DNA from: Xiphophorus maculatus | Taxonomy: Eukaryota > Chordata > Actinopteri > Cyprinodontiformes > Poeciliidae | Length of the DNA: 64,000 nucleotides | Assembly: GCF_002775205.1 (NCBI RefSeq) | Contig: NC_036447.1 | Location: 22,178,501 to 22,242,500, forward strand | Direction: 5' to 3' | Shown here: one piece after another, positions 10,899 to 64,000 of the stretch | How the letters are laid out: each line of letters begins with the position of its first letter | How positions within the stretch are numbered: position 1 is the stretch's first letter | Program-made: the position numbers and the translations under genes | Notes under the pieces: generated by a model | The model's input: the letters and a program-made list of their open reading frames with translations, nothing else | Told to the model about the DNA's origin: nothing | Databases searched by the model: none

Positions 10899-10903
10899 GC
10901 TTG

Positions 10904-16221: not shown

Positions 16222-16314
16222 TTTCTGACAGTACAGTTAAAAGAAAAATCAACCAGCAGGACAATCGGTGCAGGAGTGAAAGCAACCCTTTAGAAACCAG
16301 AGAGTTAGTTTGCT

Positions 16315-17056: not shown

Positions 17057-17498
17057 TCAGGTTTGTATTTTTTCATGTCGACCTGACTTAGAAGTTGTTG
17101 TGAAAAAAAAGTATATTGTCCACAGCAGGAGTCCTCAGACCAGGACTCAAGGCTTTAAGTTGCTGACATCTGTCCTCAAGGCCTGGATTTGAAAATCATT
17201 TCTCTATTTATAGCTTTGCTAACTAAAGCCGTAGAGTCGGCTCACAAATACACTTTTAAAAAATGTCTATACTCCAGCTTTTAGTTTATGTATTCATTTT
17301 CAGTCAACTTAATACATGAACTCTCACCTTGTCCCGCCATTCATAGCTTTTGCTTTCATGTTAGCGACGGGATTGGACACCTTTGTTTGTCACACACAGA
17401 AACGTATCTACCAGCCATGTACCGCCCCAATGCCCTTTGTTTGTTGAGACTGGGATTATATGAAATTAATTTTCCGGTTCGTTTCTGGTTTTTGATAG

Positions 17499-17990
17499 TC
17501 CACACAGGGGGGAAGCGTCACTCTTGTGGAATGTGTGGGAAACAATTTACACAAACTGGATCTTTACACAGACACATTTTGATACACACAGGACATAAGA
17601 TTTTTAGAGGAAATCTAAAAATGGACAAATCTTTAGAGAAAAAGTTCATTTAAACAACCACTTAAGAATCCACACTGATGACAAACCATCCTGTTGTAAT
17701 CTTTGTGGACAAGCATTTCATAAGAAATGTGTTTTTAAAATACAAGAGAGTTCACACAGAAGAGAAACCTTTCTGTGTTCTCTTTGACAACACTTTACTC
17801 CAAAGACAAAGTTAAAGAATCACATGAGAAATCACCAGGTTGGAAACCCTTTTGTTGTGATCTTTGGAATAAACAATTTACTTGTAAAGTATCTTTGAAC
17901 AAGCACATGAGCTCGCACACCAGTGAACCATATTGTTGTGATGTTTGTGGACAAATATTTAATGAAAAGACCATATTATACCACATTTGA
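17499..17990 (+). pseudogene. C2H2 zinc-finger gene relic, copy 1
   Basis: After a plausible acceptor (TTTTTGATAG) the frame reads [20 protein letters not shown] with the finger spacing C-x2-C-x12-H-x3-H. The frame stops at 17,653. Fingers continue in other frames: LRIHTDDKPSCCNLCGQAFH near 17,665-17,725 and KPFCCDLWNKQFT, then CDVCGQIF up to 17,990, so at least two frameshifts break the array. HTG(D/E)KP-type linkers place it among DNA-binding C2H2 proteins. No intact gene can be read, so it is a decayed gene or a terminal exon of one whose 5' exons are lost. Confidence 0.75.
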
Positions 17991-18616: not shown

Positions 18617-21600
18617 TTAAAGGACGTTGTTGTAGATATCATTGTCATGACTTAACATGTTTGGAGTGGAAGAGTTCATGTAAACAGCATCTTCTTGTAA
18701 CTCATAGATCTAAAGAAATAAAAGAAATAAGATTTTATTTGCAGGCAGAAAAAAAATATTTTAGAGCTGAAGTTCTGTTTACTCACATCATTGATTCTCA
18801 TCTCCACATTATTATCAGCAGAGTACAACACGTTTGCATTGATTCCATCCACTGAAAACACAAAGTAAACATGATGTGATTCTGTGGAGGATTTATGTGT
18901 TAGTGTATAATCTGTATAAATGTACCTTGCTTGATCCTTGATTTGTATTTTAAAACCAGCAAAAGGACAAATGTCAGGATCAGAAGCAGAGCGAAGACCG
19001 CAGGCAGAATGTAGAATAAAGGAACATCTGAAAACAAGGAAATGGAGAAGTTAACTGGTTCACAGAAATCCTCCCTAGAAACAACACGAGAAAATGAGAA
19101 CCTGAGTTTCTTATTTTAAATGTTGTGGAAAAACTGTAATCACTTGCAGTTCAACTCGATACACGTGTTCCTGTTTTCTCTTTCTCTCTCCACCACATTT
19201 ACTTTGTTTTCTTAACTCTTATTTATAATAAACTTATTTGAGTTCAGCCCAATAATTCTCAGTGTCATTTAAGGATACATTCACACAACGAGCAAATGTG
19301 ACCCAAAGCCTCAGACCTATTTCTGACATTTTCCTGGCAGTCTGAATGGCAATATTTCGATCGTTTCATCTTCAAATAAAAATCCAGTTTGTGCCACTTC
19401 CATATGTGGAACGAAATCGAATATGTAACAGTTATGTGGCTTTTTACCCAACTTTTGTGCTACTGATGTGAGATATGCACCAGAAGAAGGTAAAACTGGA
19501 CTTGAACAATGGTTGAACATTATAATTATGAAAATATGAAAAACGTCTGTGACACTGAGGCACATCACATCACAGTCCCACCACTCCTGGTTCTGACTAC
19601 AATCCAAACAGACCTCTCTGCAGAGGTTGCAGTCAATTCACCACAAAAGGCCATTGCTGTTAGTTGTGCTTTCTTTTTCTTTTTTCTCTTGTGTTCTTGT
19701 CATGATAGATACTGTCACAAGATACTTTTAATTTGATCCGTAAATAGCTACATCTACTCTTACTTCCATAAACAGTTTACTGCTGAGTGATGTCAACGTT
19801 CTTCTATGATTGTGGGTTGCTTTTGGGTTGTAAACCGTTTGCACAGAAGTCTGATTGCGGTTCGATTTAATTAGAAGTATGAACGACCACGCAAAAAAAG
19901 CCCGTCCACTACTGATGAAACTAAATCCTACATTGAGGAGCTGAAATGACCTTCAGTTTAATAATGCAGAGATTCACTTTGTGTCATAAGAGCAGCTTAG
20001 AGCAGTTAGACCAGAACATATGGAGATTTGGAATAACAGGAATGAAAAGAGTGAGCAAAAACACAAGTAATAAATAAAGAGAAACTAAGAGTTTACCAGG
20101 TTTATGTGATGGTGGCTGTGATGTCAAATGTTCAGCAGAGCTGGTTGGAGCCACAGAGCTGGTTTGATTTGGAGAGACTGTCAGAGAAAATACAAAACAT
20201 AATGTGGTAAAAAACCTTAACCTAGATTTTGTGTTGCTTTTTATTTTTCTATCTCTCTCTGTGTTGGTCTCACCGACTGCCAGCTGTATCTTTGTGAATC
20301 TCAGCTGAGAGTCTGAACCACAGTAGTATGTTCCTGCATCAGCTGCTTCCAGTTCAGTGATGATCACAGAGAAACAGATGGAGGAGACATTGAGCAGCTT
20401 GAACTTTGTTTGTTTCTCCATCATGTCTGTACAGTTGTTGTGTTGGTCTCCTTTACAGAGGAACTTCTTGTTATCATGTTGTTGTCCTGAATTAGGACAC
20501 TGCAGAGTTACTGGACGTCCCTCGATGCCACTGATGTTGTACGACTCCAGACAGAACAATTTTGCTGGAGAAGGAAATTTTAATGACTGTTGTATTAATA
20601 AACTTCTTAAGATTCAATATCAAATTAGCAAAGGCAGAATGATCTCTCACCTTTGACCTTCAGTTCAACAGCAGAGAAAACATCAAATCCTGAGATTCTC
20701 TGGACTCCACAAAGATACGACCCAGAATCCTTCAGGGTCAGACTGGAAATGGTCACTGTGAATATTCTTGACTTCCTGTCATCAGAGAGTCTGAATCGTC
20801 CATTTTGTGTGTTGCTAGAGGTGATCACTGCCTGCTGTCGACATGTGGAGGGCCGGTTTCCTCTGCAGAGGAACTTCAGCTTGTTGACAGACTGAGAGTC
20901 GTACGGACAGCTGATGGTCACTGAACCTTCCTCAATACTTTGGATTTTATTCACTGTGTCGCAGCATCTGTCTGACATGAGGTTAATAAAACAATGTAAA
21001 GTGAAAGAAAAACTAGAAATAAATCTAAAACATAAAAGAAAGTTGTGCTTTTTTGATAGAGATTTATATTTAACATTATAGTACAATTGTCTTGTATTAA
21101 CTTGTCTGCATTGATGTCTAAACATGTATTTATTTTCAACATAGAAGACGATCCAGATCTGCAAGTACATGATAATTCAACTAGCAAAATTAGAAAATTC
21201 ATTTAGCTTCTAATAACAGCTAAATTTAAGACCACACATTGATTAAAAGTGTGTATTATTAACATGGTTAGACTTTGATGCTTCATTTAATTCATTTTAA
21301 TTTGCTGTGAAATCTATAGTGAAATATAGAAACATGAACTTATTATTTACCTTCTTTTATGTGCAGTTTTACTTCACTGTAGGTATCTATTCCCCACCTA
21401 GTGACTCCACACCAGTATTTCCCAGCATCATGTGATTGAAGACCAGAGATGGTCACTGTGACGATTCTGATCTTTTTATCATCAGTGATGGAATATTTGC
21501 CTTTATTTTTCTGTTTTGTTGTAATGAGAACGTCACTGGAGCCACAGTCATTCTTACAAAGGTATTTTTTGCTGTCCTCATATCTCTCATCATAGTGGCA

Positions 21601-22696
21601 TGAAACATTTACACCTCTTCCCTCATATCCAAACAATTGGATCAAACCTTCAGCACTGATCACAAAACTCAAAGCTGCTGCAGACAGAAAACAACATCAG
21701 TTTAGTTTTCATGCTTCAACATTTGAACAATAAATATTTTTTTTTACAAGTTTTGTAAAACTACTTTTTCAAATAAAAAGCGTAATTAGTTTGTATGAGA
21801 TCAGACGATCACATTTCAGTCACAACACAAACAGGAAGTTCTACTGAGTATTTAAGTAAATGCTATATAATTTAAAAACACATTTAATTTTAATGAAATA
21901 AATTTCATCATAAGATTAAAGCAAACTGTTGTAGATCATATATTATGTCTTACTGCAGACGACGATGTGTTGATGGCTCCACATCTCTTTGTTCTTCTAA
22001 ACCAGAGCTAAACTGAGGCAGAAGTTATTTTAAAATGAGACATTTAGAGGAAACGTCAGAGCTATTAAGGATCCGGACATTCAGAAAGTTTAACAGCTTT
22101 TGAACTTGTCAACTTAATTCACAAGTGTGAAACGTCTTGTTTCTGCATTGGTCAAGTGATAACTCTGCAACCGAGTCGCTCAAAGGCTTTTCTCACAAAT
22201 ACAGGAAATAGATTTTTTTCACCACAACAAAGTTTGGGTGGATTATTGAGGGACACTCAGTTTTCAGGTTTTAATCTCAGCTGTGCAGATCTTCATGTTT
22301 GAACTTGAGAGAAACAGGAGAGAACAAAAATATAATTCAATGCCACTAACTTTAATTTTAAATTATTGTCATTTGCAAAAAATAGAATGAAATTCTTAGT
22401 CTGACTCCTCAGCAAACAGTAGATATACGTATAAATAGAAAAGGTCATGTGTATAAAAGACAATGGATAGATTGTAAATGTATTTATTTAAAAGCAAATT
22501 GAAAAACAAAAGTCGTATGTCAGCCACGGAGGGCGCCATCATGTCTATTTGATTTTATTCTAAATTTTTATTATGTTGATGACAAAATCTACTCCTGCTT
22601 TTAAAGCCAATGGAAACTGTTTAACTTATATTTGAAAACAAATAAATATTAAAACTTACCAGACAAGATGAACAACACGATCTGGAAGCTCCACAT
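18617..22696 (-). CDS. CD300/pIgR-like receptor A1, three Ig domains, tyrosine tail
   Basis: Eight exons join in frame: leader 22,660-22,696; Ig1 21,351-21,677; Ig2 20,651-20,971; Ig3 20,274-20,564; stalk 20,097-20,177; membrane 18,926-19,027; tail 18,787-18,851 and 18,617-18,709. They total 1,317 nt, 438 residues, and all Ig exons are phase 1-1. The leader MWSFQIVLFILS runs into the first residues of Ig1 to make a signal peptide of about 21 residues. Each V-type domain has the B- and F-strand Cys (VNVSCHY...GKYWCG; VTISCPY...GSYLCG; VTLQCPN...GTYYCG) and an extra C/C' Cys pair (KKYLCKNDC, KFLCRGNRPSTC, KFLCKGDQHNNC), the mark of CD300/CMRF35-like and pIgR-like proteins. A Ser/Thr/Pro stalk and the membrane segment LFYILPAVFALLLILTFVLL follow. 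The tail holds IYELQ, VYMNS and IYNNV, none a strict ITIM; YMN and YNN fit a Grb2-type YxN motif. It is probably a leukocyte surface receptor; the ligand is unknown. Confidence 0.85.
19260..19990. repeat. Possible interspersed repeat in gene A membrane-side intron
   Basis: GGATACATTCACACAACGAG at about 19,273 resembles the opening of short non-autonomous DNA elements, but no matching end was found. Units 2 and 3 carry it at 41,240 and 63,607. Unit 2 has about 310 extra bases at 41,930-42,240 that unit 1 lacks. Confidence 0.25.
21954..21984 (-). other. Alternative leader exon of gene A1
   Basis: ATG at 21,984 opens MWSHQHIVVC and ends at a GTAAGA donor in the same phase (1) as the leader at 22,660-22,696. 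Spliced to Ig1 it would still give a hydrophobic start through ALSFVISA. In gene B the equivalent exon is the only leader found, so gene A may have two alternative first exons, or this one may be a relic of a duplicated promoter. Confidence 0.5.
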
Positions 22697-23641
22697 CTTT
22701 GCATTACTGAGGACGACAAACTAAACCAGAAACAATGTTGAAGTGAAACATGACGTATCTTAAGGAAACCACATTGGTGTGATGAGTTCAACCCTTCACA
22801 CATATCAGCAGGCCTCATAAATGATGTGTAAAATGATCATTTTCTCTATGTTTCAAATGCTAAAACTAAACTCTATCAAAACAACCAAAAAGTAAGAAGA
22901 CATGCTTATTATTAGTAAAATAAAAATAAGTTCTTACAGAATTGGAGGAAATGGTCATAGAAAATGTGGGAGGGCTGAGGTGTAGTGGTTAGTGCTGTAT
23001 CATCTCAGCAAGAATATTTCCTGTTTAAATATAAGTAAAGCAGAACTTTCTGTCTATAGTTTGATAATTTATTTTAGAACATTCATCGATGTTCTCCAGG
23101 TTCTCTTTCTCTCATTGCAAAACTGTTTATAGTAACAGAATCTAGTGAATAAAATGAGCAGGAAGAAACATGTTGCCACACATTGAGGTTAAATTAAAAT
23201 TTATTTTACAGTCAAACTGACAAATGACAAATATAGAAACATAAAAAAGATTACTAGAACAATTTAAGAGGATGAAAAAACTGTAGATTTAAAAAGTGTT
23301 TTCCTCTACAGAAAACCTTATCACCTTCATGATTTAGTCTTAATATAAAAAGAAACAAAGGCTGGTTCATCAAAAACCTCTTATTTATTGTGGTGTGGAG
23401 AAAGTTAATATAATGAAATAAGTTGCATCATTAAAATATTTAGCAATTAGCATCTAAATTTTTAAATTAGCTTGAAATGTATATAATAATTTCCTCTGCA
23501 GTGCATTTCATCATTTTGCTTTCCGACAATCAGAATAAATATCTTCATTTGTGGTGAGACTTTGGTTCACATGTTGAGATTCTGCAGCTTCATCGTTGCT
23601 CCTGATGCTTTGATGCAAAGGTTGAGCTGTCTTCTGGATTT

Positions 23642-26600
23642 TCACAAATCTGAAAAATAATCATTTATGATATTCAGATAAATGAGATTTATATTACTGA
23701 GCAGAAAAACTTATCTGGATGAATGTTTATAATCTCACAGGACAAAACCTGAAGGATCTGGACACAAAGATAAAGTCATCCATTGAGCAAAGAACCAATG
23801 TAGAGGGTGATGAAAAAGTTATTAATGTAGGAGAAATGTATACTGAATCCTCAAAGGCTGCGATTTGTGATCAAACTTCTCAAATCCACCTGTTGAAATT
23901 TTGATGAAGCATCTTTTGAGACGTGACAAAGACATGGAGAAACTGAACAGAAACAGAAAACTTTCCCTAGTGGACATAAAAATAAGTAACAGGAAACGTT
24001 TTGGATCCAGTTGTCATCATTTCTTTTCACTTTTGTTTTAGAGATTTCATATGTAATCTATCCAGGATAGTAAGACATATAGAAATCCACTAGTGCAGTC
24101 ACTAGCTGTGTTTCTATTACAATTGTGTGCAAATATTTGTCGATATTCTGCTAATCTTGACTAAAGTTATAATGAGATATTTTCATCATTCAGTCTTGGC
24201 GCTAGCATTTCTCTATCAGCCATCAGAGGAGACGTCAGCATCTTGTGCTGGAGTGACAAGTTTCTTATTGGGAGCGGCTTTGTATGCAGCGTTTTGGGTA
24301 AATTGCAGTCTGTGATTTCTCAGAAGAGCTGTGGATTTTACACGTTTGAATTTTTTATGAACTGTGAGAGCTCTGGTGGAGACTGCTGCACATTATCCCA
24401 AATAAGCCCCAAAACAAACCATCATCCTGCTACTGTTTCTTGTCGTCATCTTCAACCTTTTCGCCAGCAGTAACATCTGGATATGTATAATGTTACTTGT
24501 GTGATGCTAAAAAACTGTTTCCATTGCAGTTTCGCGAAATACATCTATTTCAACACGACTGGAAAACATTATCTACCTACTGCAAAACGTTTCATTGAAA
24601 ACTCTTAAGTTTTTTAGAAATTGGTGTGTTTCCATTAAGCAAATTTATTTTATAGTTAATGAAAACTTAACTAATGTCCTCGCAAGAAGAAATCTTTCAG
24701 AGCGGCAGCTTTGTGGTCTTACATCATAGATCCTTTTTTTCTTGTTCTTTATTGTTGTGGGTTGATGTTCTGGTTAAATTCACCTTGTTGCTTCAATTTT
24801 CTTTTAAGAATCATCAGAAGGACAAACGGCAGGATCCACAGCAGAAACAGGACGACACGCAGAATGTAAAATAAGGTCAGATCTGAAAAGAAGAGAATTG
24901 AATATTCAATAGGCAAGGACAGAAAATTTCCTTCAAACAGACACAGAGAATGAAAGCATGTAATAACAATTTGAAACATTGTTTACAAAAAATCAACACT
25001 AAACATTCAGACTTCATTTATGAAGGTCCAGGCAACAGGAAGGACTGGTAGGTCCAGGATTGACCTGCGTTGGCTCAATTGTCTCTAATGGGAGATTGGA
25101 CACACCTGAGATAAAACTTCTAGAAAGAGCACAAGCTGCTACAGTTAGTTTATAAATCACTGAACAGCTCAGCATCACAATACATTAAAGATCTGCTGTT
25201 GTTGTGTCAACCTTCCAGACCTCTCAGGTCTTCTGGTTCTGGTTCTGCATCTCCAGAACCAGAACCAAACATGGAGAAGCAACATTGAGCATCTATGCAC
25301 CACAAATCTGGAACAAACTGCAAGAAAACTGCAAATATGCTGAAACACTGAGTTCCCTTAAATCTGGACTAAAAACCAGCCTGTTTAGTTTCTTTTGAAA
25401 CATAATCAATGAAAAATTTAACAAAGGCACTTTGTTGACTAAATTATAATGTTTCAAATGTTGCCTTTGCGTTCTATGAGTTTGTATGTTTGTTGTGTTT
25501 TTATGATGTAAAGCACTTTGAAATACCTTGGTGCTGAAATGTGCTATATAAATAAAATTTGATTGATTTGATGGCTGACTTAAATTCATATTAGTGTACT
25601 GCAGTGGACATCTGCAGCATTACCATTAGGCTGTGGGGTGAAGGCAGGAAAAGCTGTGAGAAGCCAACAAAACAACATTCTCTAATACTCCATTAATGTA
25701 TTTGAGTACTTGAATATCTGCTGTTTGTGGAAAACTAAGTGAAGGAAATCAGGAGAGGCACAGAGAAACAGAAAATGTAAAGAGTTTACCAGGATTATAT
25801 GATGGTGGCTGTGATGTCAAATGTTCAGCAGAGCTGGTTTCATGCAGTGAGACTGTCAGAGAAAATACAAAACATAATGTCTTTAAAATCCTTAACCTAG
25901 ATTTTGTGTTGCTTTTTATTATTCTATCTCTCTCTGTGTTGGTCTCACCGACTGCCAGCTGTATCTTTATGAATCTCAGCTGAGAGTCTGAACCACAGTA
26001 GTATGTTCCTGCATCAGCTGCTTCCAGTTCAGTGATGATCACAGAGAAACAGATGGAGGAGACATTGAGCAGCTTGAACTTTGTTTGGTTCTCCATCATG
26101 TCTGTACAGTTGTTGTGTTGGTCTCCTTTACAGAGGAACTTCTTATTATCAAGTTGTTGTCCTGAATTAGGACACTGCAGAGTTACTGGACGTCCCTCGA
26201 TGCCACTGATGTGGTACGACTTCAGACAGAACAATTTTGCTGGAGAAGGAAATTTTAATAACTGTTGTATTTATAAACTTCTTAAGATTCATTATCAAAT
26301 TAGCAAAGGCAGAATGATCTCTCACCTTTGACCTTCAGTTCAACAGCAGAGAAACCATCAAATCCTGAGTTTCTCTGGACTCCACAAAGATACGACCCAG
26401 AATCCTTCAGGGTCAGACTGGAAATGGTCACTGTGAATATTCTTGACTTCCTGTCATCAGAGAGTCTGAATCGTCCATTTTGTGTGTTGCTAGAGGTGAT
26501 CACTGCCTGCTGTCGACATGTGGAGGGCCGGTTTCCTCTGCAGAGGAACTTCAGCTTGTTGACAGACTGAGAGTCGTACGGACAGCTGATGGTCACTGAA

Positions 26601-27443
26601 CCTTCCTCAATACTTTGGATTTTATTCACCGTGTTGCAGCATCTGTCTGACATGAGGTTAATAAAACAATGTAAAGTGAAAGAAAACCTAGAAATAAATC
26701 TAAAACATAAAAGAAAGTGGTAGTGTTTTGATAGAGATTTATATTTAACATTATAGACTAGTACAATTTTCTTGTATTAACTTGTCTGCATTGATGTCTA
26801 AACATTTACCTTCTTTTATGTGCAGTTTTACTTCACTGTAAGTATCAATAAACCACCCAGTGACTCCACACCAGTATTTCCCAGCATCATGTGATTGAAG
26901 ACCAGAGATGGTCACTGTGACGATTCTGATCTTTTTATCATCAGTGATGGAATATTTGCCTTTATTTTTCTGTTTTGTTGTAATGAGAACGTCACTGGAG
27001 CCACAGTCATTCTTACAAAAGTATTTTTTGCTATCCTTAAATCTCTCATCATAGTGGCATGAAAAATTTACACCTCTTCCCTCATATCCAAACACTTCGA
27101 TCAAACCTTCAGCACTGATCACAAAACTCAGAGCTGCTGCAGACAGAAAACAACATCAGTTTAGTTTTCATGCTTCAACATTTGAACAATAAATATATTT
27201 TTTTACAAGTTTTGTAAAACTACTTTTTCTAATAAAAAGCACAATTAGTTTGTATGAGATCAGACGATCACATTTCAGTCACAACACAAACAGGAAGTGC
27301 TACTGAGTCTTTAAGTAAATGCTATATAATTTAAAAACACATTTAAATTTAATTAAATAAAATTCATCATAAGATTAAAGCAAACTGTTGTAGATCATAT
27401 ATTATGTCTTACTGCAGACGATGATGTGTTGATGGCTCCACAT
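23642..27443 (-). CDS. CD300/pIgR-like receptor B1, three Ig domains, Arg in membrane segment
   Basis: Exons: leader 27,413-27,443 (MWSHQHIIVC); Ig1 26,810-27,136; Ig2 26,326-26,646; Ig3 25,949-26,239; stalk 25,790-25,852; membrane 24,784-24,882; terminal exon from 23,649. Joined, they give 1,140 nt, 379 residues, ending two residues into the terminal exon. The three Ig domains are nearly those of gene A1. The membrane segment reads LFYILRVVLFLLWILPFVLL: where gene A has Pro, B has Arg (residue about 353), a buried charge of the kind used by activating receptors to bind adaptors such as DAP12 or FcR-gamma. The tail would be only KRKLKQQDL. The terminal exon also has a 45-codon frame ending NEDIYSDCRKAK at 23,511, reachable only if an unseen small exon shifts the phase. 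The intron between stalk and membrane exons holds a plus-strand L2 LINE fragment. Confidence 0.8.
24117..24660. repeat. Interspersed repeat with three TGTTTC(C/T)ATT motifs
   Basis: TGTTTCTATTACAATTG near 24,119, TGTTTCCATTGCAGTTTCGC near 24,516 and TGTTTCCATTAAGCAAATTT near 24,627 are spaced as direct repeats in the last intron of gene B1. No transposase is present. The copy in unit 2 lies at about 46,482-47,023. It looks like a non-autonomous element or a compound of several; the family was not recognised. Confidence 0.35.
25144..25571 (+). mobile_element. 5'-truncated L2-clade LINE, 3' fragment
   Basis: The plus strand encodes the last part of the LINE reverse-transcriptase ORF (matching the product of the larger copy at 31,536-33,262), then the same 3' end: AAGCACTTTGAAATACCTTG, TATAAATAAAATTTGATTGA. 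It sits in the gene B1 intron between stalk and membrane exons, in opposite orientation to the gene. Confidence 0.7.
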
Positions 27444-29315: not shown

Positions 29316-30027
29316 TTAAAGGATGTTGTTGTAGATATCATTGTTATCACGATTCAACATGTTTGGAGTGGAAGAGTTCATGTAAACAACATCCTCTTGT
29401 AAATCATAGACCTAAAAGTAATAATATATGAAATTAATTAGATTCTCTTTGCAAAAAACATCAAATATCTTGTAGCTGAAGTTCAATTTACTCACATCAT
29501 TGATTCTCATCTCCACATTACTATCAGCAGAGTTCAACACGTTTGCATTGATTCCATCCACTGAAAACACAAAGTAAACATGATGTGATTCTGTGGAGGA
29601 TTTATGTGTTAGTATATAATCTGTATAAATGTACCTTGCTTGATCCTTGATTTGTATTTTAAAACCAGCAAAAGGACAAATGTCAGGATCAGAAGCAGAG
29701 CGAAGACCGCAGGCAGAATGTAGAATAAAGGAACATCTGAAAACAAGGAAGTGGAGAACTTAGCTGGTTCTCCAGGAACAGAACCCTACACAGAAACACC
29801 ACAGAATGACATGAATTACTTATTTTAGTCAGACCTGATAGACATGTTCCTGTTTTCTCATTCTATCTCCACCACATTTAGATGGTTTTCTTAACTTATT
29901 GTTAATACATCTAAATCCATTAACATTAGTAACAGAGATATAGAAAGAAGCCTAAAGAGTTTACCAGATTTATGTGATGGTGGCTGTGATGTAACTTGTT
30001 CAGCAGAGCTGGTTTGATGTGGAGAGA
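29316..30027 (-). pseudogene. A-type receptor relic: stalk, membrane and tail exons only
   Basis: Four exons homologous to gene A remain: stalk 29,965-30,027, membrane 29,635-29,736, tail 29,496-29,560 and 29,316-29,411. The membrane exon matches gene A (no Arg), and the tail keeps three tyrosines (VYDLQ, VYMNS, IYNNI). Upstream, where Ig3, Ig2, Ig1 and leader should lie, the intron sequence passes at about 30,090 into the 3' flank of a B-type gene. In gene A1 the matching points lie at about 20,240 and 23,100, so roughly 2.9 kb with every Ig exon was deleted. It cannot make a receptor alone. Splicing of its cassette onto a neighbour is possible but unproven. Confidence 0.75.
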
Positions 30028-30089
30028 CTGTCAGAGAAAATACAAAACATAATTAACCTGGATTTTGTTTTGCTTTTTATTATTCTATT

Positions 30090-30559
30090 TATTATTCTTT
30101 CTCTCATTGCAAAAGCTGCTTTTGTAAAATGCAGAATCTAGTGAATAAAATGAGCATGAAGAAATATGTTGCCACAAATTGAGGTTAGAATTAAATTTTA
30201 TTTTAAAGTCAAACTGACAAATGACAAATATAGAAACATAAAAAAGATTGCCAGAACAATGTAACAGGATGAAAATACTGCAGATATAAAAAGTGTTTTC
30301 CTCTACAGAAAGCCTTATCATCTTCATGAAATAGTCTTAATTTAAAAAGAAACAAGATGGTTCATCAAAAACCTCATATTTATTGTGGTGTGGAGAAAGT
30401 TAATGAAATAAAACAAGCTGCATCATTAAAACCTTTAACAATTAGCATCTAAATCTTAAAATTAGCTTGAAATATATATAATAATTTCCTCTGCCTTGCA
30501 TTTCACCATTTTGCTTTCCGACAATCAGAAGAAAGATTTTCATTTGTGGTGAGACTTGA
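30090..30559 (-). pseudogene. Relic of a B-type receptor 3' end
   Basis: This segment is similar to 23,100-23,551, the 3' UTR and last part of the terminal exon of gene B1 (TTTTGCTTTCCGACAATCAG at both). Similarity stops at GGTGAGACT, where the LTR-like block begins. It shows that a second A-B gene pair once stood here, now reduced by deletion and by the array breakpoint. Confidence 0.6.
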
Positions 30560-40596: not shown

Positions 40597-43500
40597 TTAA
40601 AGGACGTTGTTGTAGATATCATTGTCATGACTTAACATGTTTGGAGTGGAAGAGTTCATGTAAACAGCATCTTCTTGTAACTCATAGATCTAAAGAAATA
40701 AAAGAAATAAGATTTTATTTGCAGGCAAAAAAATATATTTTAGAGCTGAAGTTCTGTTTACTCACATCATTGATTCTCATCTCCACTTTATTATCAGCAG
40801 AGTACAACACGTTTGCATTGATTCTGTCCACTGAAAACACAAAGTAAACATGATGTGATTCTGTGGGGATTTATGTGTTGGTGTATAATCTGTATAAATG
40901 TACCTTGCTTGATCCTTGTTTTGTATTTTAAAACCAGCAAAAGGACAAATGTCAGGATCAGAAGCAGAGCGAAGACCGCAGGCAGAATGTAGAATAAAGA
41001 AACATCTGAAAACAAGGAAATGGAGAATTAGCTGGTTCACAGAAATCCTCCCTAGAAACAACACGAGAAAATGAGAACCTGAGTTTCTTATTTTAAATGT
41101 TGTGGAAAAACTGTAATCACTTGCAGTTCAACTCGATACACATGTTCCTGTTTTCTCTTTCTCTCTCCACCACATTTACTTTGTTTTCTTAACTCTTATT
41201 TATAATAAGAGTTAAGTTAAGTTATTTGAGTTCAGCCCAATAATTCTCAGTGTCATTTAAGGATACATTCACACAACGAGCAAATGTGACCCAAAGCCTC
41301 AGACCTATTTCTGACTTTTTCCTGGCAGTCTGAATGGCAATATTTCGATTGTTTCATCTTCAAATAAAATCCAGTTTGTGCCACTTCCATATGTGGAAGT
41401 AAATTGAATATGTATCTGGTAGTTTTTGAAGGGTTGCAGTCTGAACGGTCATGTGGCTTTTTACCCAACTTTTGTGCCATAGATGTGAGATATGCACCAG
41501 AAGAAGGTAAAACTGGACTTGAACAATTTTTGAACATTATAATTATGAAAATATGAAAAACGTCTGTGACACTGAGGCACATCACATCACAGTCCCACCA
41601 CTCCTGGTTCTGACTACAATCCAAACAGACCTCTCTGCAGAGTTTGCAGTCAATTCACCACAAGAGGCCATTGCTGTTAGTTGTGCTTTCTTTTTCTTTT
41701 TTCTCTTGTGTTCTTGTCATGATAGATACTGTCACAAGATACTTTTAATTTGATCCGTAAATAGCTACATCTACTCTTACTTCCATAAACAGTTTACTGC
41801 TGAGTGATGTCAACGTTCTTCTATGATTGTGGGTTGCTTTTGTGTTGTAAACCGTTTGCACAGAAAGTCTGATTGCGGTACGATTTAATTAGAAGTATGA
41901 ACGACCACGCAAAAAAACAACTAAAGATTGGATTTCAGCAAAAAATTGAATTAAGCATCAAGACCTGTGATGTGAATGTTGTCATTTTTGTCTCAAACTC
42001 AAAACTCAGAAACCTGAAAAAGTTCACACCTCAAAAGTCAGTAGCATGACTCAATCTAATGAAAGAGGAACTAGATTTTGTTCTCCATCTTAAGGTTTCC
42101 TGAGAAAGATACTGAAAGATGGTTGGCATAACATTCTCTAGTGCTGATGTTCTCTGAATGTGTGAAATGCATGAATGTGTTGATGCTTTGTGAGTGAGGA
42201 TGTTTAGTGTGCATTTAAACAGCTACATCATTTCAGCCAATCCACTACTGATAAAACTAAATCCTACATTGAGGAGCTGGAAATGACCTTCAGTTTAATA
42301 ATGCAGAGATTCACTTTGTGTCATAAGAGCAGCTTAGACCAGTTAGACCAGAACATATAGAGATTGGAATAACAGGAATGAAAAGAGTGAGCAAAAACAC
42401 AAGTAAATAAACAGAAAGAAACAAAGAGTTTACCAGGTTTATGTGATGATGGGGACAGCGATGGTGGCTGTGATGTAACCTGTTCAGCAGAGCTGGTTGG
42501 AGCCACAGAGCTGGTTTGATTTTGAAGAGACTGTCAGAGAAAATACAAAAATTGATGTGGTAAAAAAAAACCCCAACAACCTTAACTGAATTTTGTGTTG
42601 CTTTTTATTATTATTCTATCTCTCTCTGTGTTGGTCTCCACCGACTGCCAGTTGTATCTTTGTGAATCTCAGCTGAGAGTCTGAACCACAGTAGTATGTT
42701 CCTGCATCAGCTTGCTTCCAGTTCAGTGATGATCACAGAGAAACAGGTGGAGGAGACATTGAGCAGCTTGAACTTGTTTGGTTCCCATCATGTCTGTACA
42801 GTTGTTGTGTTGGTCTCCTTTACAGAGGAACTTCTTGTTATCATGTTGTTGTCCTGAATTAGGACACTGCAGAGTTACTGGACGTCCCTCGATGCCACTG
42901 ATGTTGTACGACTTCAGACAGAACAATTCTGCTGGAGAAGGAAATTTTAATAACTGTTGTATTTATAAACTTCTTAAGATTCATTATCAAGTTAGCAAAG
43001 GCAGAATGATCTCTCACCTTTGACCTTCAGTTCAACAGCAGAGAAAACATCAAATCCTGAGTTTCTCTGGACTCCACAAAGATACGACCCAGAATCCTTC
43101 AGGGTCAGACTGGAAATGGTCACTGTGAATATTCTTGACTTCCTGTCATCAGAGAGTCTGAATCGTCCATTTTGTGTGTTGCTAGAGGTGATCACTGCCT
43201 GCTGTCGACATGTGGAGGGCCGGTTTCCTCTGCAGAGGAACTTCAGCTTGTTGATAGACTGAGAGTCGTACGGACAGCTGATGGTCACTGAACCTTCCTC
43301 AATACTTTGGATTTTATTCACTTTGTAGCAGCATCTGTCTGACATGAGGTTAATAAAACAATGTAAAGTGAAAGAAAAACTAGAAATAAATCTAAAACAT
43401 AAAAGAAAGTTGTACTTTTTTGATAGAGATTTATATTTAACATTATAGACTAGTACAATTGTCTTGTATTAACATGTCTGCATTGATGTCTAAACATGTA

Positions 43501-45064
43501 TTTATTTTCAACATAGAAGACGATCCAGATCTGCAAGTACATGATAATTCAACTAGCAAAATTAGAAAATACATTTAGCTTCTAATAACAGCTAAATTTA
43601 AGACCACACATTGATTAAAAGTGTGTATTATTAACATGGTTAGACATTGATGCTTCATTTAATTCATTTTAATTTGCTGTGAAATCTATAGTGAAATATA
43701 GAAACATGAACTTATTATTTACCTTCTTTTATGTACAGTTTTACTTCACTGTAGGTATCTTTTCCCCACCTAGTGACTCCACACCAGTATTTCCCAGCAT
43801 CATGTGATTGAAGATCAGAGATGGTCACTGTGACGATTCTGTTATTTTTATCATCAGTGATGGAATATTTGCCTTTATTCTTCTGTTTTGTTGTAATGAG
43901 AATGTCACTGGAGCCACAGTCATTCATACAAAAGTATTTTTTGCTATTCTCATATCCCTGGTCATAGTGGCATGAAACATTTACACCTCTTCCCTCATAT
44001 CCAAACACTTCGATCAAACCTTCAGCACTGATCACAAAACTCAAAGCTGCTGCAGACAGAAAACAACATCAGTTTAGTTTTTATGCTTCAACATTTGAAC
44101 AATAAATATATTTTTTTACAAATTTTTAAAACTACTTTTTCAAATAAAAAGCACAATTAGTTTGTATAAGATAAGACGATCACATTTCAGTCACAACACA
44201 AACAGGAAGTGCTACTGAGTCTTTAAGTAAATGCTATATAATTTAAAAACACATTTAATTTTAATGAAATAAAATTCATCATAAGATTAAAGCAAACTGT
44301 TGTCGATCATATATTATGTCTTACTGCAGATGATGATGTGTTGATGGCTCCACATCTCTTTGTTCTTCTAAACCAGAGTTAAACTGAGGCAGAAGTTATT
44401 TTAAAATGAGACATTTAGAGGAAACGTCAGAGCTATTAAGGATCCTGACATTCAGAAAGTTTAACAGCTTTTGAACTTGTCAACTTAATTCACAAGTGTG
44501 AAACGTCTTGTTTCTGCATTGGTCAAGTGATAACTCTGCAACCAATGATCTCACAGGCTTTACTCACAAAAACAGGAAATAGATTTTTTTCACCACAACA
44601 AAGTTTGGGTGGATTATTGAGGGACACTCAGTTTTCTGGTTTTTAATCTCAGCTGTGCAGATCTTCATGTTTGAACTTGAGAGAAACAGGAGAGAACAAA
44701 TTAAATTCAATGCCACTAACTTTAATTTTAAATTATTGTAATTTGCAAAAAATTAGAATGAAATTCTTAGTCTGACTAAGCAAACAGTAAATATACGTAT
44801 AAATAGAAAAGGTCATATGTATAAAAGACAATGGATAGATTGTAAATGTATTTATTTAAAAGCAAATTGAAAAACAAAAGTCGTATGTCAGCTACGGAGG
44901 GCGCCATCATGTCTATTTGATTTTATTCTAAATTTTTATTATGTTGATGACAAAATCTACTCCTGCTTTTAAAGCCAATGGAAACTGTTTAAATTATATT
45001 TGAAAACAAATAAATATTAAAACTTACCAGACAAGATGAACAACACGATCTGGAAGCTCCACAT
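40597..45064 (-). CDS. CD300/pIgR-like receptor A2, tyrosine tail (frame disturbed by probable sequence errors)
   Basis: Exons match gene A1: leader 45,028-45,064, alternative leader 44,325-44,355, Ig1 43,723-44,049, Ig2 43,018-43,338, Ig3 42,642-42,931, stalk 42,434-42,530, membrane 40,904-41,005, tail 40,766-40,830 and 40,597-40,689. Ig1, Ig2, membrane and tail exons are open. Ig1 differs from A1 mainly in CDR-like loops (DQGYENSKK for DERYEDSKK; TRWGKDT for TRWGIDT). The stalk has five extra codons (SLSPSSHKPG) plus one extra base. Ig3 carries several single-base indels (GGTCTCCACC, CAGCTTGCTT, GAACTTGTTTGG) and does not read through. These indels sit in a stretch where indels are frequent everywhere, so I infer an intact gene read with errors rather than a true pseudogene. 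The membrane segment keeps Pro, not Arg; the tail keeps the IYELQ, VYMNS and IYNNV motifs. Confidence 0.75.
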
Positions 45065-46006
45065 CTTTGCATTATTGAGGACGACAAACTAAACCAGAAA
45101 CAATGTAGAAGTGAAACATGACGTATTTTAAGGAAACCACATTGGTGTGATGAGTTCAGCCCTTCACACATATCAGCAGGCCTCATAAATGATGTGTAAA
45201 ATGATCATTTTCTCTATGTTTCAAATGCTAAAACTAAACTCTATCAAAACAACCAAACAGTAAGAAGACATGCTTATTATTAGTAAAATTAAAATAAGTG
45301 TTTACAAAGTTGGAGGAAATGGTCATAGGAAATGTGGAGGGCTGAGGTGTAGTGGTTAGTGCTGTATCATCTCAGCAAGAATATTTCCTGTTTAAATATA
45401 AGTGAAGCAGAACTTTCTGTCTATAGTTTGATAATTTATTTTAGAACATTCATCGATGTTCTCCAGGTTCTCTTTCTCTCATTGCAAAACTGTTTATAGT
45501 AACAGAATCTAGTGAATAAAATGAGCAGGAAGAAACATGTTGCCACACATTGAGGTAGAATTAAAATTTATTTTAAGTCAAACTGACAAATGACAAATAT
45601 AGAAACATAAAAAAGATTACTAGAACAATTAAGAGGATGAAAAAACTGTAGATTTAAAAAGTGTTTTCCTCTACAAGAAAACCTTATCACCTTCATGATT
45701 TAGTCTTAATATAAAAAGAAACAAAGGCTGGTTCATCAAAAACCTCTTATTTATTGTGGTGTGGAGAAAGTTATATAATGAAATAAGTTGCATCATTAAA
45801 ATATTTAGCAATTAGCATCTAAATTTTTAAATTAGCTTGAAATGTATATAATAATTTCCTCTGCAGTGCATTTCATCATTTTGCTTTCCGACAATCAGAA
45901 TAAATATCTTCATTTGTGGTGAGACTTTGGTTCACATGTTGAGATTCTGCAGCTTCATCGTTGCTCCTGATGCTTTGATGCAAAGGTTGAGCTGTCTTCT
46001 GGATTT

Positions 46007-49000
46007 TCACAAATCTGAAAAATAATCATTTATGATATTCAGATAAATGAGATTTATATTACTGAGCAGAAAAACTTATCTGGATGAATGTTTATAATCT
46101 CACAGGACAAAACCTGAAGGATCTGGACACAAAGATAAAGTCATCCATTGAGCAAAGAACCAATGTAGAGGGTGATGAAAAAGTTATTAATGTAGGAGAA
46201 ATGTATACTGAATCCTCAAAGGCTGCGATTTGTGATCAAACTTCTCAAATCCACCTGTTGAAATTTTGATGAAGCATCTTTTGAGACGTGACAAAGACAT
46301 GGAGAAACTGAACAGAAACAGAAAACTTTCCCTAGTGGACATAAAAATAAGTAACAGGAAACGTTTTGGATCCAGTTGTCATCATTTCTTTTCACTTTTG
46401 TTTTAGAGATTTCATATGTAATCTATCCAGGATAGTAAGACATATAGAAATCCACTAGTGCAGTCACTAGCTGTGTTTCTATTACAATTGTGTGCAAATA
46501 TTTGTCGATATTCTGCTAATCTTGACTAAAGTTATAATGAGATATTTTCATCATTCAGTCTTGGCGCTAGCATTTCTCTATCAGCCATCAGAGGAGACGT
46601 CAGCATCTTGTGCTGGAGTGACAAGTTTCTTATTGGGAGCGGCTTTGTATGCAGCGTTTTGGGTAAATTGCAGTCTGTGATTTCTCAGAAGAGCTGTGGA
46701 TTTTACACGTTTGAATTTTTTATGAACTGTGAGAGCTCTGGTGGAGACTGCTGCACATTATCCCAAATAAGCCCCAAAACAAACCATCATCCTGCTACTG
46801 TTTCTTGTCCATCTTCAACCTTTTCGCCAGCAGTAACATCTGGATATGTATAATGTTACTTGTGTGATGCTAAAAAACTGTTTCCATTGCAGTTTCGCGA
46901 AATACATCTATTTCAACACGACTGGAAAACATTATCTACCTACTGCAAAACGTTTCATTGAAAACTCTTAAGTTTTTTAGAAATTGGTGTGTTTCCATTA
47001 AGCAAATTTATTTTATAGTTAATGAAAACTTAACTAATGTCCTCGCAAGAAGAAATCTTTCAGAGCGGCAGCTTTGTGGTCTTACATCATAGATCCTTTT
47101 TTTCTTGTTCTTTATTGTTGTGGGTTGATGTTCTGGTTAAATTCACCTTGTTGCTTCAATTTTCTTTTAAGAATCATCAGAAGGACAAACGGCAGGATCC
47201 ACAGCAGAAACAGGACGACACGCAGAATGTAAAATAAGGTCAGATCTGAAAAGAAGAGAATTGAATATTCAATAGGCAAGGACAGAAAATTTCCTTCAAA
47301 CAGACACAGAGAATGAAAGCATGTAATAACAATTTGAAACATTGTTTACAAAAAATCAACACTAAACATTCAGACTTCATTTATGAAGGTCCAGGCAACA
47401 GGAAGGACTGGTAGGTCCAGGATTGACCTGCGTTGGCTCAATTGTCTCTAATGGGAGATTGGACACACCTGAGATAAAACTTCTAGAAAGAGCACAAGCT
47501 GCTACAGTTAGTTTATAAATCACTGAACAGCTCAGCATCACAATACATTAAAGATCTGCTGTTTGTGTCAACCTTCCAGACCTCTCAGGTCTTCTGGTTC
47601 TGGTTCTGCATCTCCAGAACCAGAACCAAACATGGAGAAGCAACATTGAGCATCTATGCACCACAAATCTGGAACAAACTGCAAGAAAACTGCAAATATG
47701 CTGAAACACTGAGTTCCCTTAAATCTGGACTAAAAACCAGCCTGTTTAGTTTCTTTTGAAACATAATCAATGAAAATTTAACAAAGGCACTTTGTTGACT
47801 AAATTATAATGTTTCAAATGTTGCCTTTGCGTTCTATGAGTTTGTATGTTTGTTGTGTTTTTATGATGTAAAGCACTTTGAAATACCTTGGTGCTGAAAT
47901 GTGCTATATAAATAAAATTTGATTGATTTGATGGCTGACTTAAATTCATATTAGTGTACTGCAGTGGACATCTGCAGCATTACCATTAGGCTGTGGGGTG
48001 AAGGCAGGAAAAGCTGTGAGAAGCCACAAAACAACATTCTCTACTCCATTAATGTATTTGAGTACTTGAATATCTGCTGTTTGTGGAAAACTAAGTGAAG
48101 GAAATCAGGAGAGGCACAGAGAAACAGAAAATGTAAAGAGTTTACCAGGATTATATGATGGTGGCTGTGATGTCAAATGTTCAGCAGAGCTGGTTTCATG
48201 CAGTGAGACTGTCAGAGAAAATACAAAACATAATGTCTTTAAAATCCTTAACCTAGATTTTGTGTTGCTTTTTATTATTCTATCTCTCTCTGTGTTGGTC
48301 TCACCGACTGCCAGCTGTATCTTTATGAATCTCAGCTGAGAGTCTGAACCACAGTAGTATGTTCCTGCATCAGCTGCTTCCAGTTCAGTGATGATCACAG
48401 AGAAACAGATGGAGGAGACATTGAGCAGCTTGAACTTTGTTTGGTTCTCCATCATGTCTGTACAGTTGTTGTGTTGGTCTCCTTTACAGAAGGAACTTCT
48501 TATTATCAAGTTGTTGTCCTGATTAGGACACTGCAGAGTTACTGACGTCCCTCGATGCCACTGATGTGGTACGACTTCAGACAGAACAATTTTGCTGAGA
48601 AGGAAATTTTAATAACTGTTGTATTTATAAACTTCTTAAGATTCATTATCAAATTAGCAAAGGCAGAATGATCTCTCACCTTTGACCCTTCAGTTCAACA
48701 GCAGAGAAACCATCAAATCCTGAGTTTCTCTGGACTCCACAAAGATACGACCCAGAATCCTTCAGGGTCAGACTGGAAATGGTCACTGTGAATATTCTTG
48801 ACTTCCTGTCATCAGAGAGTCTGAATCGTCCATTTGTGTGTTGCTAGAGGTGATCACTGCCTGCTGTCGACATGTGGAGGGCCGGTTTCCTCTGCAGAGG
48901 AACTTCAGCTTGTTGACAGACTGAGAGTCGTACGGACAGCTGATGGTCACTGAACCTTCCTCAATACTTTGGATTTTATTCACCGTGTTGCAGCATCTGT

Positions 49001-49797
49001 CTGACATGAGTTAATAAAACAATGTAAAGTGAAAGAAAACCTAGAAATAAATCTAAAACATAAAAGAAAGTGGTAGTGTTTTGATAGAGATTTATATTTA
49101 ACATTATAGACTAGTACAATTTTCTTGTATTAACTTGTCTGCATTGATGTCTAAACATTTACCTTCTTTTATGTGCAGTTTTACTTCACTGTAAGTATCA
49201 ATAAACCACCCAGTGACTCCACACCAGTATTCCCAGCATCATGTGATTGAAGACCAGAGATGGTCACTGTGACGATTCTGATCTTTTTATCATCAGTGAT
49301 GGAATATTTGCCTTTATTTTTTCTGTTTTGTTTGTAATGAGAACGTCACTGGAGCCACAGTCATTCTTACAAAAGTATTTTTTGCTATCCTTAAATCTCT
49401 CATCATAGTGGCATGAAAAATTTACACCTCTTCCCTCATATCCAAACACTTCGATCAAACCTTCAGCACTGATCACAAAACTCAGAGCTGCTGCAGACAG
49501 AAAACAACATCAGTTTAGTTTTCATGCTTCAACATTTGAACAATAAATATATTTTTTACAAGTTTTTGTAAAACTACTTTTTCTAATAAAAAGCACAATT
49601 AGTTTGTATGAGATCAGACGATCACATTTCAGTCACAACACAAACAGGAAGTGCTACTGAGTCTTTAAGTAAATGCTATATAATTTAAAAACACATTTAA
49701 ATTTAATTAAATAAAATTCATCATAAGATTAAAGCAAACTGTTGTAGATCATATATTATGTCTTACTGCAGACGATGATGTGTTGATGGCTCCACAT
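46007..49797 (-). CDS. CD300/pIgR-like receptor B2, Arg in membrane segment (frame disturbed by probable sequence errors)
   Basis: Counterpart of B1: leader 49,767-49,797, Ig1 49,163-49,490 (328 nt, one too many), Ig2 48,680-49,000, Ig3 48,305-48,594 (290 nt, one too few), stalk 48,146-48,208, membrane 47,147-47,245, terminal exon from 46,014. The membrane exon with its Arg and the short tail are identical to B1. Each Ig exon carries compensating or single one-base indels, for example TTTGACCCTTCAG and CCATTTGTGTG in Ig2. No substitution separating B2 from B1 was noticed. It is best treated as an intact gene whose frame must be re-read from better data, or as a duplicate rendering of B1. Confidence 0.65.
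46482..47023. repeat. Interspersed repeat with TGTTTC(C/T)ATT motifs, unit 2 copy
   Basis: Counterpart of 24,117-24,660, in the same intron of gene B2. Confidence 0.35.
47506..47931 (+). mobile_element. L2-clade LINE 3' fragment, unit 2 copy
   Basis: Counterpart of 25,144-25,571 at the same intronic site of gene B2, with one-base length differences only; the insertion predates the latest duplication. Confidence 0.7.
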
Positions 49798-51660: not shown

Positions 51661-52373
51661 TTAAAGGATGTTGTTGTAGATATCATTGTTATCACGATTC
51701 AACATGTTTGGAGTGGAAGAGTTCATGTAAACAACATCCTCTTGTAAATCATAGACCTAAAAGTAATAATATATGAAATTAATTAGATTCTCTTTGCAAA
51801 AAAACATCAAATATCTTGTAGCTGAAGTTCAATTTACTCACATCATTGATTCTCATCTCCACATTACTATCAGCAGAGTTCAACACGTTTGCATTGATTC
51901 CATCCACTGAAAACACAAAGTAAACATGATGTGATTCTGTGGAGGATTTATGTGTTAGTATATAATCTGTATAAATGTACCTTGCTTGATCCTTGATTTG
52001 TATTTTAAAACCAGCAAAAGGACAAATGTCAGGATCAGAAGCAGAGCGAAGACCGCAGGCAGAATGTAGAATAAAGGAACATCTGAAAACAAGGAAGTGG
52101 AGAACTTAGCTGGTTCTCCAGGAACAGAACCCTACACAGAAACACCACAGAATGACATGAATTACTTATTTTAGTCAGACCTGATAGACATGTTCCTGTT
52201 TTCTCATTCTATCTCCACCACATTTAGATGGTTTTCTTAACTTATTGTTAATACATCTAAATCCATTAACATTAGTAACAGAGATATAGAAAGAAGCCTA
52301 AAGAGTTTACCAGATTTATGTGATGGTGGCTGTGATGTAACTTGTTCAGCAGAGCTGGTTTGATGTGGAGAGA
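51661..52373 (-). pseudogene. A-type receptor relic, unit 2 copy
   Basis: Counterpart of 29,316-30,027: tail exon 51,661-51,756, then tail, membrane and stalk exons up to 52,373. All Ig exons are absent in the same way, so the deletion preceded the latest duplication. Confidence 0.75.
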
Positions 52374-52435
52374 CTGTCAGAGAAAATACAAAACATAATT
52401 AACCTGGATTTTGTTTTGCTTTTTATTATTCTATT

Positions 52436-62942: not shown

Positions 62943-63352
62943 TTAAAGGACGTTGTTGTAGATATCATTGTCATGACTTAACATGTTTGGAGTGGAAGAG
63001 TTCATGTAAACAGCATCTTCTTGTAACTCATAGATCTAAAGAAATAAAAGAAATAAGATTTTATTTGCAGGCAAAAAAATATATTTTAGAGCTGAAGTTC
63101 TGTTTACTCACATCATTGATTCTCATCTCCACTTTATTATCAGCAGAGTACAACACGTTTGCATTGATTCTGTCCACTGAAAACACAAAGTAAACATGAT
63201 GTGATTCTGTGGGGGATTTATGTGTTGGTGTATAATCTGTATAAATGTACCTTGCTTGATCCTTGTTTTGTATTTTAAAACCAGCAAAAGGACAAATGTC
63301 AGGATCAGAAGCAGAGCGAAGACCGCAGGCAGAATGTAGAATAAAGAAACAT
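62943..63352 (-). CDS. CD300/pIgR-like receptor A3, 3' exons (gene continues past window end)
   Basis: Tail exon 62,943-63,035, tail exon 63,112-63,176 and membrane exon 63,251-63,352 match gene A2 (SLFYILPAVFALLLILTFVL; DRINAN; IYELQ, VYMNS, IYNNV). Stalk and Ig exons would lie beyond 64,000. The intron here lacks the one-base losses seen in unit 2. Confidence 0.75.
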
Positions 63353-64000
63353 CTGAAAACAAGGAAATGGAGAAATTAGCTGGTTCACAGAAATCCTCCC
63401 TAGAAACAACACGAGAAAATGAGAACCTGAGTTTCTTATTTTAAATGTTGTGGAAAAACTGTAATCACTTGCAGTTCAACTCGATACACATGTTCCTGTT
63501 TTCTCTTTCTCTCTCCACCACATTTACTTTGTTTTCTTAACTCTTATTTATAATAAGAGTTAAGTTAAGTTATTTGAGTTCAGCCCAATAATTCTCAGTG
63601 TCATTTAAGGATACATTCACACAACGAGCAAATGTGACCCAAAGCCTCAGACCTATTTCTGACTTTTTCCTGGCAGTCTGAATGGCAATATTTCGATTGT
63701 TTCATCTTCAAATAAAAATCCAGTTTGTGCCACTTCCATATGTGGAAGTAAATTGAATATGTATCTGGTAGTTTTTGAAGGGTTTGCAGTCTGAACGGTC
63801 ATGTGGCTTTTTACCCAACTTTTGTGCCATAGATGTGAGATATGCACCAGAAGAAGGTAAAACTGGACTTGAACAATTTTTGAACATTATAATTATGAAA
63901 ATATGAAAAACGTCTGTGACACTGAGGCACATCACATCACAGTCCCACCACTCCTGGTTCTGACTACAATCCAAACAGACCTCTCTGCAGAGTTTGCAGT

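Follow-up and report, generated by a model that had tools for sequence, protein, structure and literature searches.

Can one outer face be issued with two different signalling ends by neighbouring genes of a fish receptor cluster? This question is raised by two adjacent immunoglobulin (Ig) receptor genes, A (22696..18617) and B (27443..~23640), which lie on the minus strand of the window analysed here, i.e. the whole stretch of 64,000 nucleotides of Xiphophorus maculatus DNA at C5:22178501-22242500; all genome searches were made over the 704-Mb assembly. A preliminary description of this DNA had read the two genes as a paired system, one member with a tyrosine tail and the other coupled to an adaptor. 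According to our analysis, A and B probably are a paired pIgR/CD300-like receptor set, in which B would be adaptor-coupled, A would bear a tyrosine-containing tail, and one ectodomain cassette would be shared between the two ends. The reading is carried by the gene anatomy, an Arg together with a short predicted tail in all six B-type copies, a cassette pattern of sequence identity and the presence of adaptor genes in the genome. The shared ectodomain with two different ends and the repeated copying remain from the earlier description, while the adaptor choice and the type of partner tail had to be revised. Judged by sequence, the arrangement looks like a fish version of mammalian receptor pairs.

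Gene structure and shared ectodomains

The eight exons of gene A encode a predicted product of 438 amino acids. Its signal peptide precedes three Ig domains of the V type, which are followed by a stalk rich in Pro, Ser and Thr, the membrane segment and a tail of 52 residues that is encoded by two exons. On the minus strand, the eight exons are located at 22660..22696 (exon 1, signal peptide MWSFQIVLFILS, donor 10.6 bits; the splice scores given here rest on consensus frequencies), 21351..21677 (first V-type Ig domain, D1), 20651..20971 (second, D2), 20274..20564 (third, D3), 20097..20177 (stalk), 18926..19027 (membrane exon, encoding VPLFYILPAVFALLLILTFVLLLVL with Pro at the aligned position), 18787..18851 (first cytoplasmic exon, phase 1 to 0) and 18617..18709 (second cytoplasmic exon, with three conserved tyrosines and the stop). 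Gene B, on the same strand, follows this plan up to the membrane exon and reaches 379 amino acids in its best splice model. Its exons lie at 27413..27443 (sole candidate signal exon, MWSHQHIIVC), 26810..27136 (D1), 26326..26646 (D2), 25949..26239 (D3), 25790..25852 (stalk), 24784..24882 (membrane exon with Arg, LTLFYILRVVLFLLWILPFVLLMIL) and 23514..23649 (last exon, reading DL* in the splice phase and NEDIYSDC in another frame). Starting with the signal exon, all junctions up to the one that leads into the membrane exon are in phase 1, and the frames are open in both genes. The outer limits of the pair were placed correctly from the beginning, 18617 being the last base of the stop codon of A on the minus strand and 27443 the first base of the candidate ATG of B.

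Both translations matched the Pfam V-set family in three stretches each (A 1.4e-26, B 6.8e-26). In a comparison with PDB entries that covered whole A, D1 and D3, pIgR was the best match, followed by CMRF35-like molecule 1 (whole A 3.3e-35, D1 5.3e-28, D3 5.1e-17); a search of NCBIfam with D2 yielded no match. Extra cysteine pairs, candidates for a second pair in each V domain, were read by eye from the translation (CKNDC, CRGNRPSTC and CKGDQHNNC). On these domain matches, A and B are pIgR/CD300-type V-domain receptors, and their three V domains set them apart from CD300 proper with its single V domain.

Up to the membrane exon and with the signal peptide included, A and B are identical at 317 of 344 aligned residues (92.2%). 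The identity of B to A amounts to 92.7% in D1, 97.2% in D2 and 94.9% in D3 at the amino acid level, and to 95.7%, 98.8% and 97.9%, respectively, at the nucleotide level, in line with the earlier remark that the Ig domains are nearly alike. The membrane exons agree at only 18 of 29 aligned residues (62.1%), and 30 of their 99 aligned nucleotides differ. The exchange of Pro in A (codon CCT) for Arg in B (CGT) had been noticed correctly, and it recurs in all six A-type and all six B-type membrane exons; however, it had been taken for the sole difference, and 11 of the 29 residues differ. As in known paired receptors, neighbouring genes with near-identical ectodomains thus continue into different membrane and tail parts and, on predicted splicing, one member combines a charged membrane residue with a short, motif-free tail.

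That short tail is the outcome of the best splice, which joins the membrane exon of B (donor 24784, 8.8 bits, phase 1) to an acceptor at 23649 (5.6 bits) and yields ...KRKLKQQDL*, nine residues past the membrane as proposed before. If the donor were read through, an 18-residue tail (KRKLKQQGEFNQNINPQQ*) would result, with an AATAAA overlapping the stop; a tyrosine is absent from both versions. The DL* ending was obtained in 6/6 B-type copies examined, which count as five independent ones if the copy B' described below is an artefact. The AATAAA behind the membrane exon was considered as a conserved design and rejected, the signal being lost in the copy B4.

An inverted set and the cassette pattern

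Exons were also mapped in the flanks of the window, over 50 kb on its left side and 70 kb on its right, and positions outside are given in window coordinates, with negative values to the left. In genome-wide searches with the membrane exons, at least six A-type matches, at least six B-type matches and at least six cross-matches were obtained, all on C5 and within about 140 kb. Three of the genes, B5, B6 and A4, are situated to the left of the window on the opposite strand; of these, A4 and B6 make up an inverted set, about 50-60 kb away. Both have a canonical signal exon and open frames, and B6 is fully open to DL*, so that B6 is a better example of a B gene than B itself. A4 and B6 are identical at 343 of 348 residues up to the membrane exon (98.6%), and their first domain shows just 58% identity to that of A.

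The synonymous divergence (dS) groups the genes incongruently. For D1, it is 0.075 between A and B, 0.0 between A4 and B6 and 0.96 between A and A4, pairing A with B and A4 with B6, whereas the membrane exons pair A with A4 (dS 0) and B with B6 (dS 0), at a dS of 0.6 between A and B. Seven consecutive windows of 400 bp, compared without gaps and beginning upstream of the signal exon, show 98.75-100% identity between B6 and A4 as far as D3; past D3, the identity falls to 51% in the window spanning the stalk and to 22-33% in the remainder. With gaps allowed, the match breaks off shortly after the stalk exon, at -38460. B, B'' and B4 have the same membrane exon, from which B5 and B6 depart at one nucleotide, while the bases adjoining it differ in B4. 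Outer cassettes appear to have been fitted to two fixed membrane/tail ends, the pattern being such as cassette transfer would leave. An ectodomain gene conversion of this kind, between CD300A and CD300C in primates, is reported in PMC12447643.

The inverted set A4/B6 strengthens the pairing reading, and it also bears on the earlier proposal that a whole paired set is copied at once. This proposal cannot rest on the second set in the window, A'/B', because these copies are nearly substitution-free relative to A'' and B and lie in an indel-rich patch; A4/B6 supports it independently.

Two of the outer domains differ strongly in their history. Over the 66 pairs of 12 genes, a count that excludes A', B' and a D1 at 83673, the median dS is 0.82 for D1 and 0.041 for D2. 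A genome search with D2 listed 56 matches, of which those above 50% identity all fall within this cluster; 13 full-length matches of at least 88% were listed, plus two pieces of B', all on C5 at 22.133-22.293 Mb, and the next best listed reached 47%. D3 occurs in two classes, either near-identical or about half identical to that of A. Since protein constraint alone would not spare silent sites, the near-identity of D2 at these sites across 12 genes apparently reflects gene conversion. It is possible, if still doubtful, that the cluster is a combinatorial system of two polarities, in which diverse D1s are repeatedly fitted via the shared, homogenised D2 onto Arg/adaptor and YxN-tail ends. If this holds, each new binding face could be issued in both forms.

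Membrane arginine, adaptors and tyrosine tails

In a membrane-insertion model, the best B segments keep the Arg inside (-5.26 with Arg at position 8 of 25, -4.98 at position 6 of 23), and the best segment beginning after it scores only -2.88. The check suggested for the earlier claim, that a membrane predictor should place the Arg within the bilayer, therefore comes out in its favour. The residue lies within the outer third of the segment; if the segment is taken as the 21 residues that precede the cytoplasmic KRK, it occupies position 4. For macaque KIR, an Arg at membrane position 4 is reported to go with FcRgamma and a Lys at position 9 with DAP12 (PMC8102735). A short-tailed catfish receptor with a membrane Lys was, by the account in a review, co-precipitated with FcRgamma, FcRgamma-L and CD3zeta-L and not with DAP12 (PMC4810170).

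Candidate partners are present in the genome. With a profile of the TCR-zeta/FcRgamma family, 4 of 14 genome matches exceeded the cut-off, and all four have an Asp in the context CYxLD. Three of the four exons were compared with solved structures: one was closest to FcRgamma (E 8.7e-10), the second matched FcRgamma (4.3e-11) with zeta almost level (9.8e-11), and the third was closest to zeta. The stretch GLSSPSNDTYETIK near one FcRgamma-like exon is, by its likeness, what we take to be the second half of an immunoreceptor tyrosine-based activation motif (ITAM). For FcRgamma coupling, we accordingly have an outer Arg, as placed by the insertion model, Asp-bearing adaptor exons in the genome and a presumed half of one ITAM. 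Coupling through DAP12 or FcRgamma had been proposed; the adaptor-type segment and the very short predicted tail agree with this, and because of the Arg in the outer third and the catfish precedent, adaptors of the FcRgamma/zeta type are predicted to be more likely for B than DAP12.

The other end of the system is the tail of A, which had been described as about 50 residues with three tyrosine motifs. The length holds (52 residues), yet there are four tyrosines (VLYSAD, DIYELQ, AVYMNS and DIYNNV). The first is replaced by Asn in A4 and in C, an orphan 3' end, and each of the four A-type tails in the comparison retains the other three. Eight tails were scanned in total. Four belong to A, A'', A4 and C; the others are tail exons in neighbouring genes, chosen for their splice scores and open frames and by visual inspection. 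Each of the eight contains three to five tyrosines, and YxN is found in 8/8. YxN is named as a GRB2-binding motif in PMC4810170, and human CD300b is described as docking Grb2 through a tail tyrosine (PMC7247439).

In the mechanism we propose, an ITAM adaptor, most probably a dimer of the FcRgamma or zeta-like type, would provide the Asp that pairs with the Arg in the outer third of the B membrane helix, and the tail of B itself would have decayed to about nine residues. A, without a membrane charge, would rely for signalling on the YxN tyrosines of its own tail and most probably recruit SH2 adaptors of the GRB2 type. The ectodomain cassette, from signal exon to stalk, would be copied or converted between the two fixed membrane/tail ends, which would keep the pairs matched and, once both members were expressed at the surface, may let them share a ligand. 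A fish pIgR/CD300-like cluster would then use the paired-receptor principle with a cassette swapped between adaptor-coupled and tyrosine-tailed ends. Since the two matched pairs, A/B and A4/B6, have clearly distinct first domains, ligand, adaptor choice and signal sign are testable on the same ectodomain.

Weighing of alternative explanations

Several observations speak against this paired-receptor explanation. The first domains of A'' and B'' are 82% identical, a looser match than that of A and B. The patterns of the inhibitory (ITIM) and switch (ITSM) motifs and of the ITAM were present in 0/8 of the scanned partner tails, and a search by pattern around the FcRgamma-like exons did not find a complete ITAM. 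The earlier expectation of a partner with a signalling tail is therefore kept for the tyrosine tail as such, which among these motifs offers YxN only. The ITIM typical of the other member of a paired receptor is lacking; A as an inhibitory receptor was rejected on this ground, and because the scanned tails all carry YxN and are without ITIM, their motifs do not indicate opposed signs. The best-scoring membrane segments set the Arg at positions 6-8 of 23-26, between the FcRgamma and the DAP12 rules. What tells most against the B genes taken one by one, except B6, is the missing canonical signal exon. It was found at A, A'', A4 and B6, thus in only one of five B-type genes; in B, a search of the 6 kb preceding D1 did not find it. 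B and B5 have a second signal-exon copy alone (40/41 and 39/41 nucleotides; the search at B5 covered 4.2 kb), and within 6 kb of D1 no signal exon was found in B'' (best 24/42) or B4 (best 28/41). Finally, the last exon of B looks decayed, which would fit a short-tail receptor but equally a dying gene.

The second signal exon, a type beginning MWSHQHI, is located in the window at 21954-21984 (in gene A on the minus strand, MWSHQHIVVC), 27413-27443 and 44325-44355, and in B it is predicted still to yield a hydrophobic leader.

B could be a decaying or decoy gene, with a wrecked tail, a second-rate signal exon and an Arg that is passive or ER-retaining (ER, endoplasmic reticulum). B and 3/4 of the other B-type genes lack the canonical signal exon, the orphan C demonstrates that such genes do decay in this array, and the last exon has DL* in the splice phase with a probable relic of a tyrosine tail out of frame. 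Support for the relic comes from comparing tail exons in eight pairings with 1000 mononucleotide shuffles each. The end of the last exon of B resembles a neighbouring tail exon, STTEDIYRN (G5b), with a score of 47 against a shuffle maximum of 41 (0/1000 reach it); the score was reached by 5 shuffles for B with G9, 218 with G8, 418 with G5a and 841 with the tail exon of A, and in the other pairings by 35 (A-G8), 232 (A-G5b) and 0 (G5b-G8). Three of the five B pairings hence show no likeness, and one, perhaps two, back the relic, so that the last exon of B is probably what is left of a tyrosine tail. Nevertheless, the three Ig exons, the stalk and the membrane exon of B are open, the membrane exon is kept to within one nucleotide in five B-type genes even where the bases beside it differ (B4), and B6 combines the canonical signal exon with a frame open through to DL*, which makes it unlikely in our view that B is such a gene. 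The splicing of B to a tyrosine tail is decidedly improbable. It could use its own NEDIYSDC frame, open in 5/6 copies, or the tail exons of A 5.9 kb downstream, the first of which accepts the phase 1 of the B membrane donor to give an open chimera, a route that the sequence permits. However, the acceptor required for the one-tyrosine tail, at 23626, has a score of -3.7 bits, whereas that of DL* reaches 5.6, and the NEDIYSDC frame is stopped in B4. A bridging exon restoring the tyrosine tail was sought among 23 candidates with open frame and fitting phase and rejected, none being convincing by eye; their sites were not scored by script.

The same paired logic with DAP12 in place of FcRgamma appears quite unlikely. 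Positions 6-8 in the best-scoring segments come close to the Lys-9 rule, but the residue is Arg and not Lys, it falls on position 4 by the count from KRK, and even with a Lys the catfish receptor is described as choosing FcRgamma and CD3zeta-L over DAP12 (PMC4810170). We therefore retain the paired set with an FcRgamma/zeta-type adaptor for B.

Relation to known receptor systems

Mammalian CD300 pairs are the closest comparison. Like the CD300A/CD300C pair, A and B have CD300/pIgR-type V domains (the PDB matches include CMRF35-like molecules 1 and 6 and CMRF35-H), and a member with a charged membrane segment and a short tail stands beside a tyrosine-tailed one. In contrast to the mammalian receptors, there are three V domains here instead of one, the tail carries YxN without an ITIM, and B has an Arg where CD300C has a membrane Glu. 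The catfish IpLITRs belong to another Ig-receptor branch, and the KIR are C2-type natural killer cell receptors of mammals, with ITIMs in the partner tails. Homogenisation of the ectodomain by gene conversion, as reported for CD300A/C (PMC12447643), is a further shared trait. IpLITR 2.6b resembles B in its basic membrane residue and short tail, with FcRgamma, FcRgamma-L and CD3zeta-L and not DAP12 as partners in the account of PMC4810170, and is unlike it in having Lys instead of Arg. Activating KIR of macaques, as described in PMC8102735, share with B an Arg near the outer membrane end, FcRgamma as the partner and an ectodomain joined to the membrane/tail end of another gene. Zebrafish PIGRL and salmon CD300-like genes are likewise given as teleost multigene pIgR/CD300-like families (PMC9321927). 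Among the titles listed in literature searches, such a paired arrangement in fish was not found; the zebrafish PIGRL and salmon CD300-like papers were not covered.

The repeated block and other features of the array

The block at 23.4-41.2 kb recurs at 45.8-63.5 kb, and A' (40597..45064, minus strand) matches A'', whose 3' end is at 62943..64000 on the minus strand and which continues to 67410 outside the window, intact and with 443 amino acids. B' (45879..49797, minus strand) is a copy of B without an isolated substitution. Over about 22 kb, the mismatches number six (23.4-28.9 against 45.8-51.2 kb), zero (28.9-41.2 against 51.2-63.5 kb) and two (A' against A''); a single shifted homopolymer-indel pair accounts for five of the six, the sixth being a lone substitution at 28675, and the two in A'/A'' are adjacent bases. 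One-base indels are situated in homopolymers in 24/24, 3/4 and 15/16 cases, with five more indels of 2-3 bases; they break the D3 frame in A' and the frames in B', and they cluster at 41.2-51.2 kb, most of them within 6 kb of the join. This join of the duplicated 22.3-kb block, at 45559..45706, has the A''-B'' spacer on its left and the A-B spacer on its right; left of 45559 and right of 45706, the sequence matches the respective spacer without substitutions.

A'/B' may be the result of a fresh unequal crossover or of misassembly, and the indel-rich stretch centred on the join would fit an unpolished patch. An independent pair A'/B' was rejected in view of the nearly substitution-free copy and this patch, for which reason the frameshifts should not be read as pseudogenes. 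We give an even chance to A'/B' being a product of the assembly, in which case the window holds one real complete pair. The few mismatches, the indels nearly all in homopolymers and mostly near the join, and the join as a hybrid of two real spacers favour this; yet the same hybrid would arise if the A''-B'' and A-B spacers had crossed over unequally, and the stretch rich in errors may come from one long read that truly spans the join. Copy numbers of such arrays in assemblies may thus be inflated. The cluster of homopolymer indels at 41200-51250, set against a near-identical copy, resembles unpolished long-read sequence.

C (29316..30031, minus strand) has no Ig exons and consists of the exons for an A-type stalk, membrane segment and tail, and a B-type last-exon remnant adjoins it at 30509..30557 on the same strand; to judge from these exons, both together are an older remnant of such a pair. 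A second copy, C', is located at 51661..52377 (minus strand). The exons of C and C' are open in frame and could in principle serve upstream genes as alternative 3' ends.

Other sequences accompany the array. A tektin exon is carried along three times (15580-16236, with a Pfam match, 37575-38231 and 59921-60577). SRCR-domain exons are present at 8452-9195 and 10503-11057, and an overlapping stretch (10126-10763) recurs at 30901-31538 and 53247-53884. Reverse-transcriptase-type frames occupy the same place in two array units (31764-33266 and 54110-55612), one piece matching Pfam RVT_1, and a C2H2 zinc-finger fragment on the plus strand (17285-17653) is repeated in other units.

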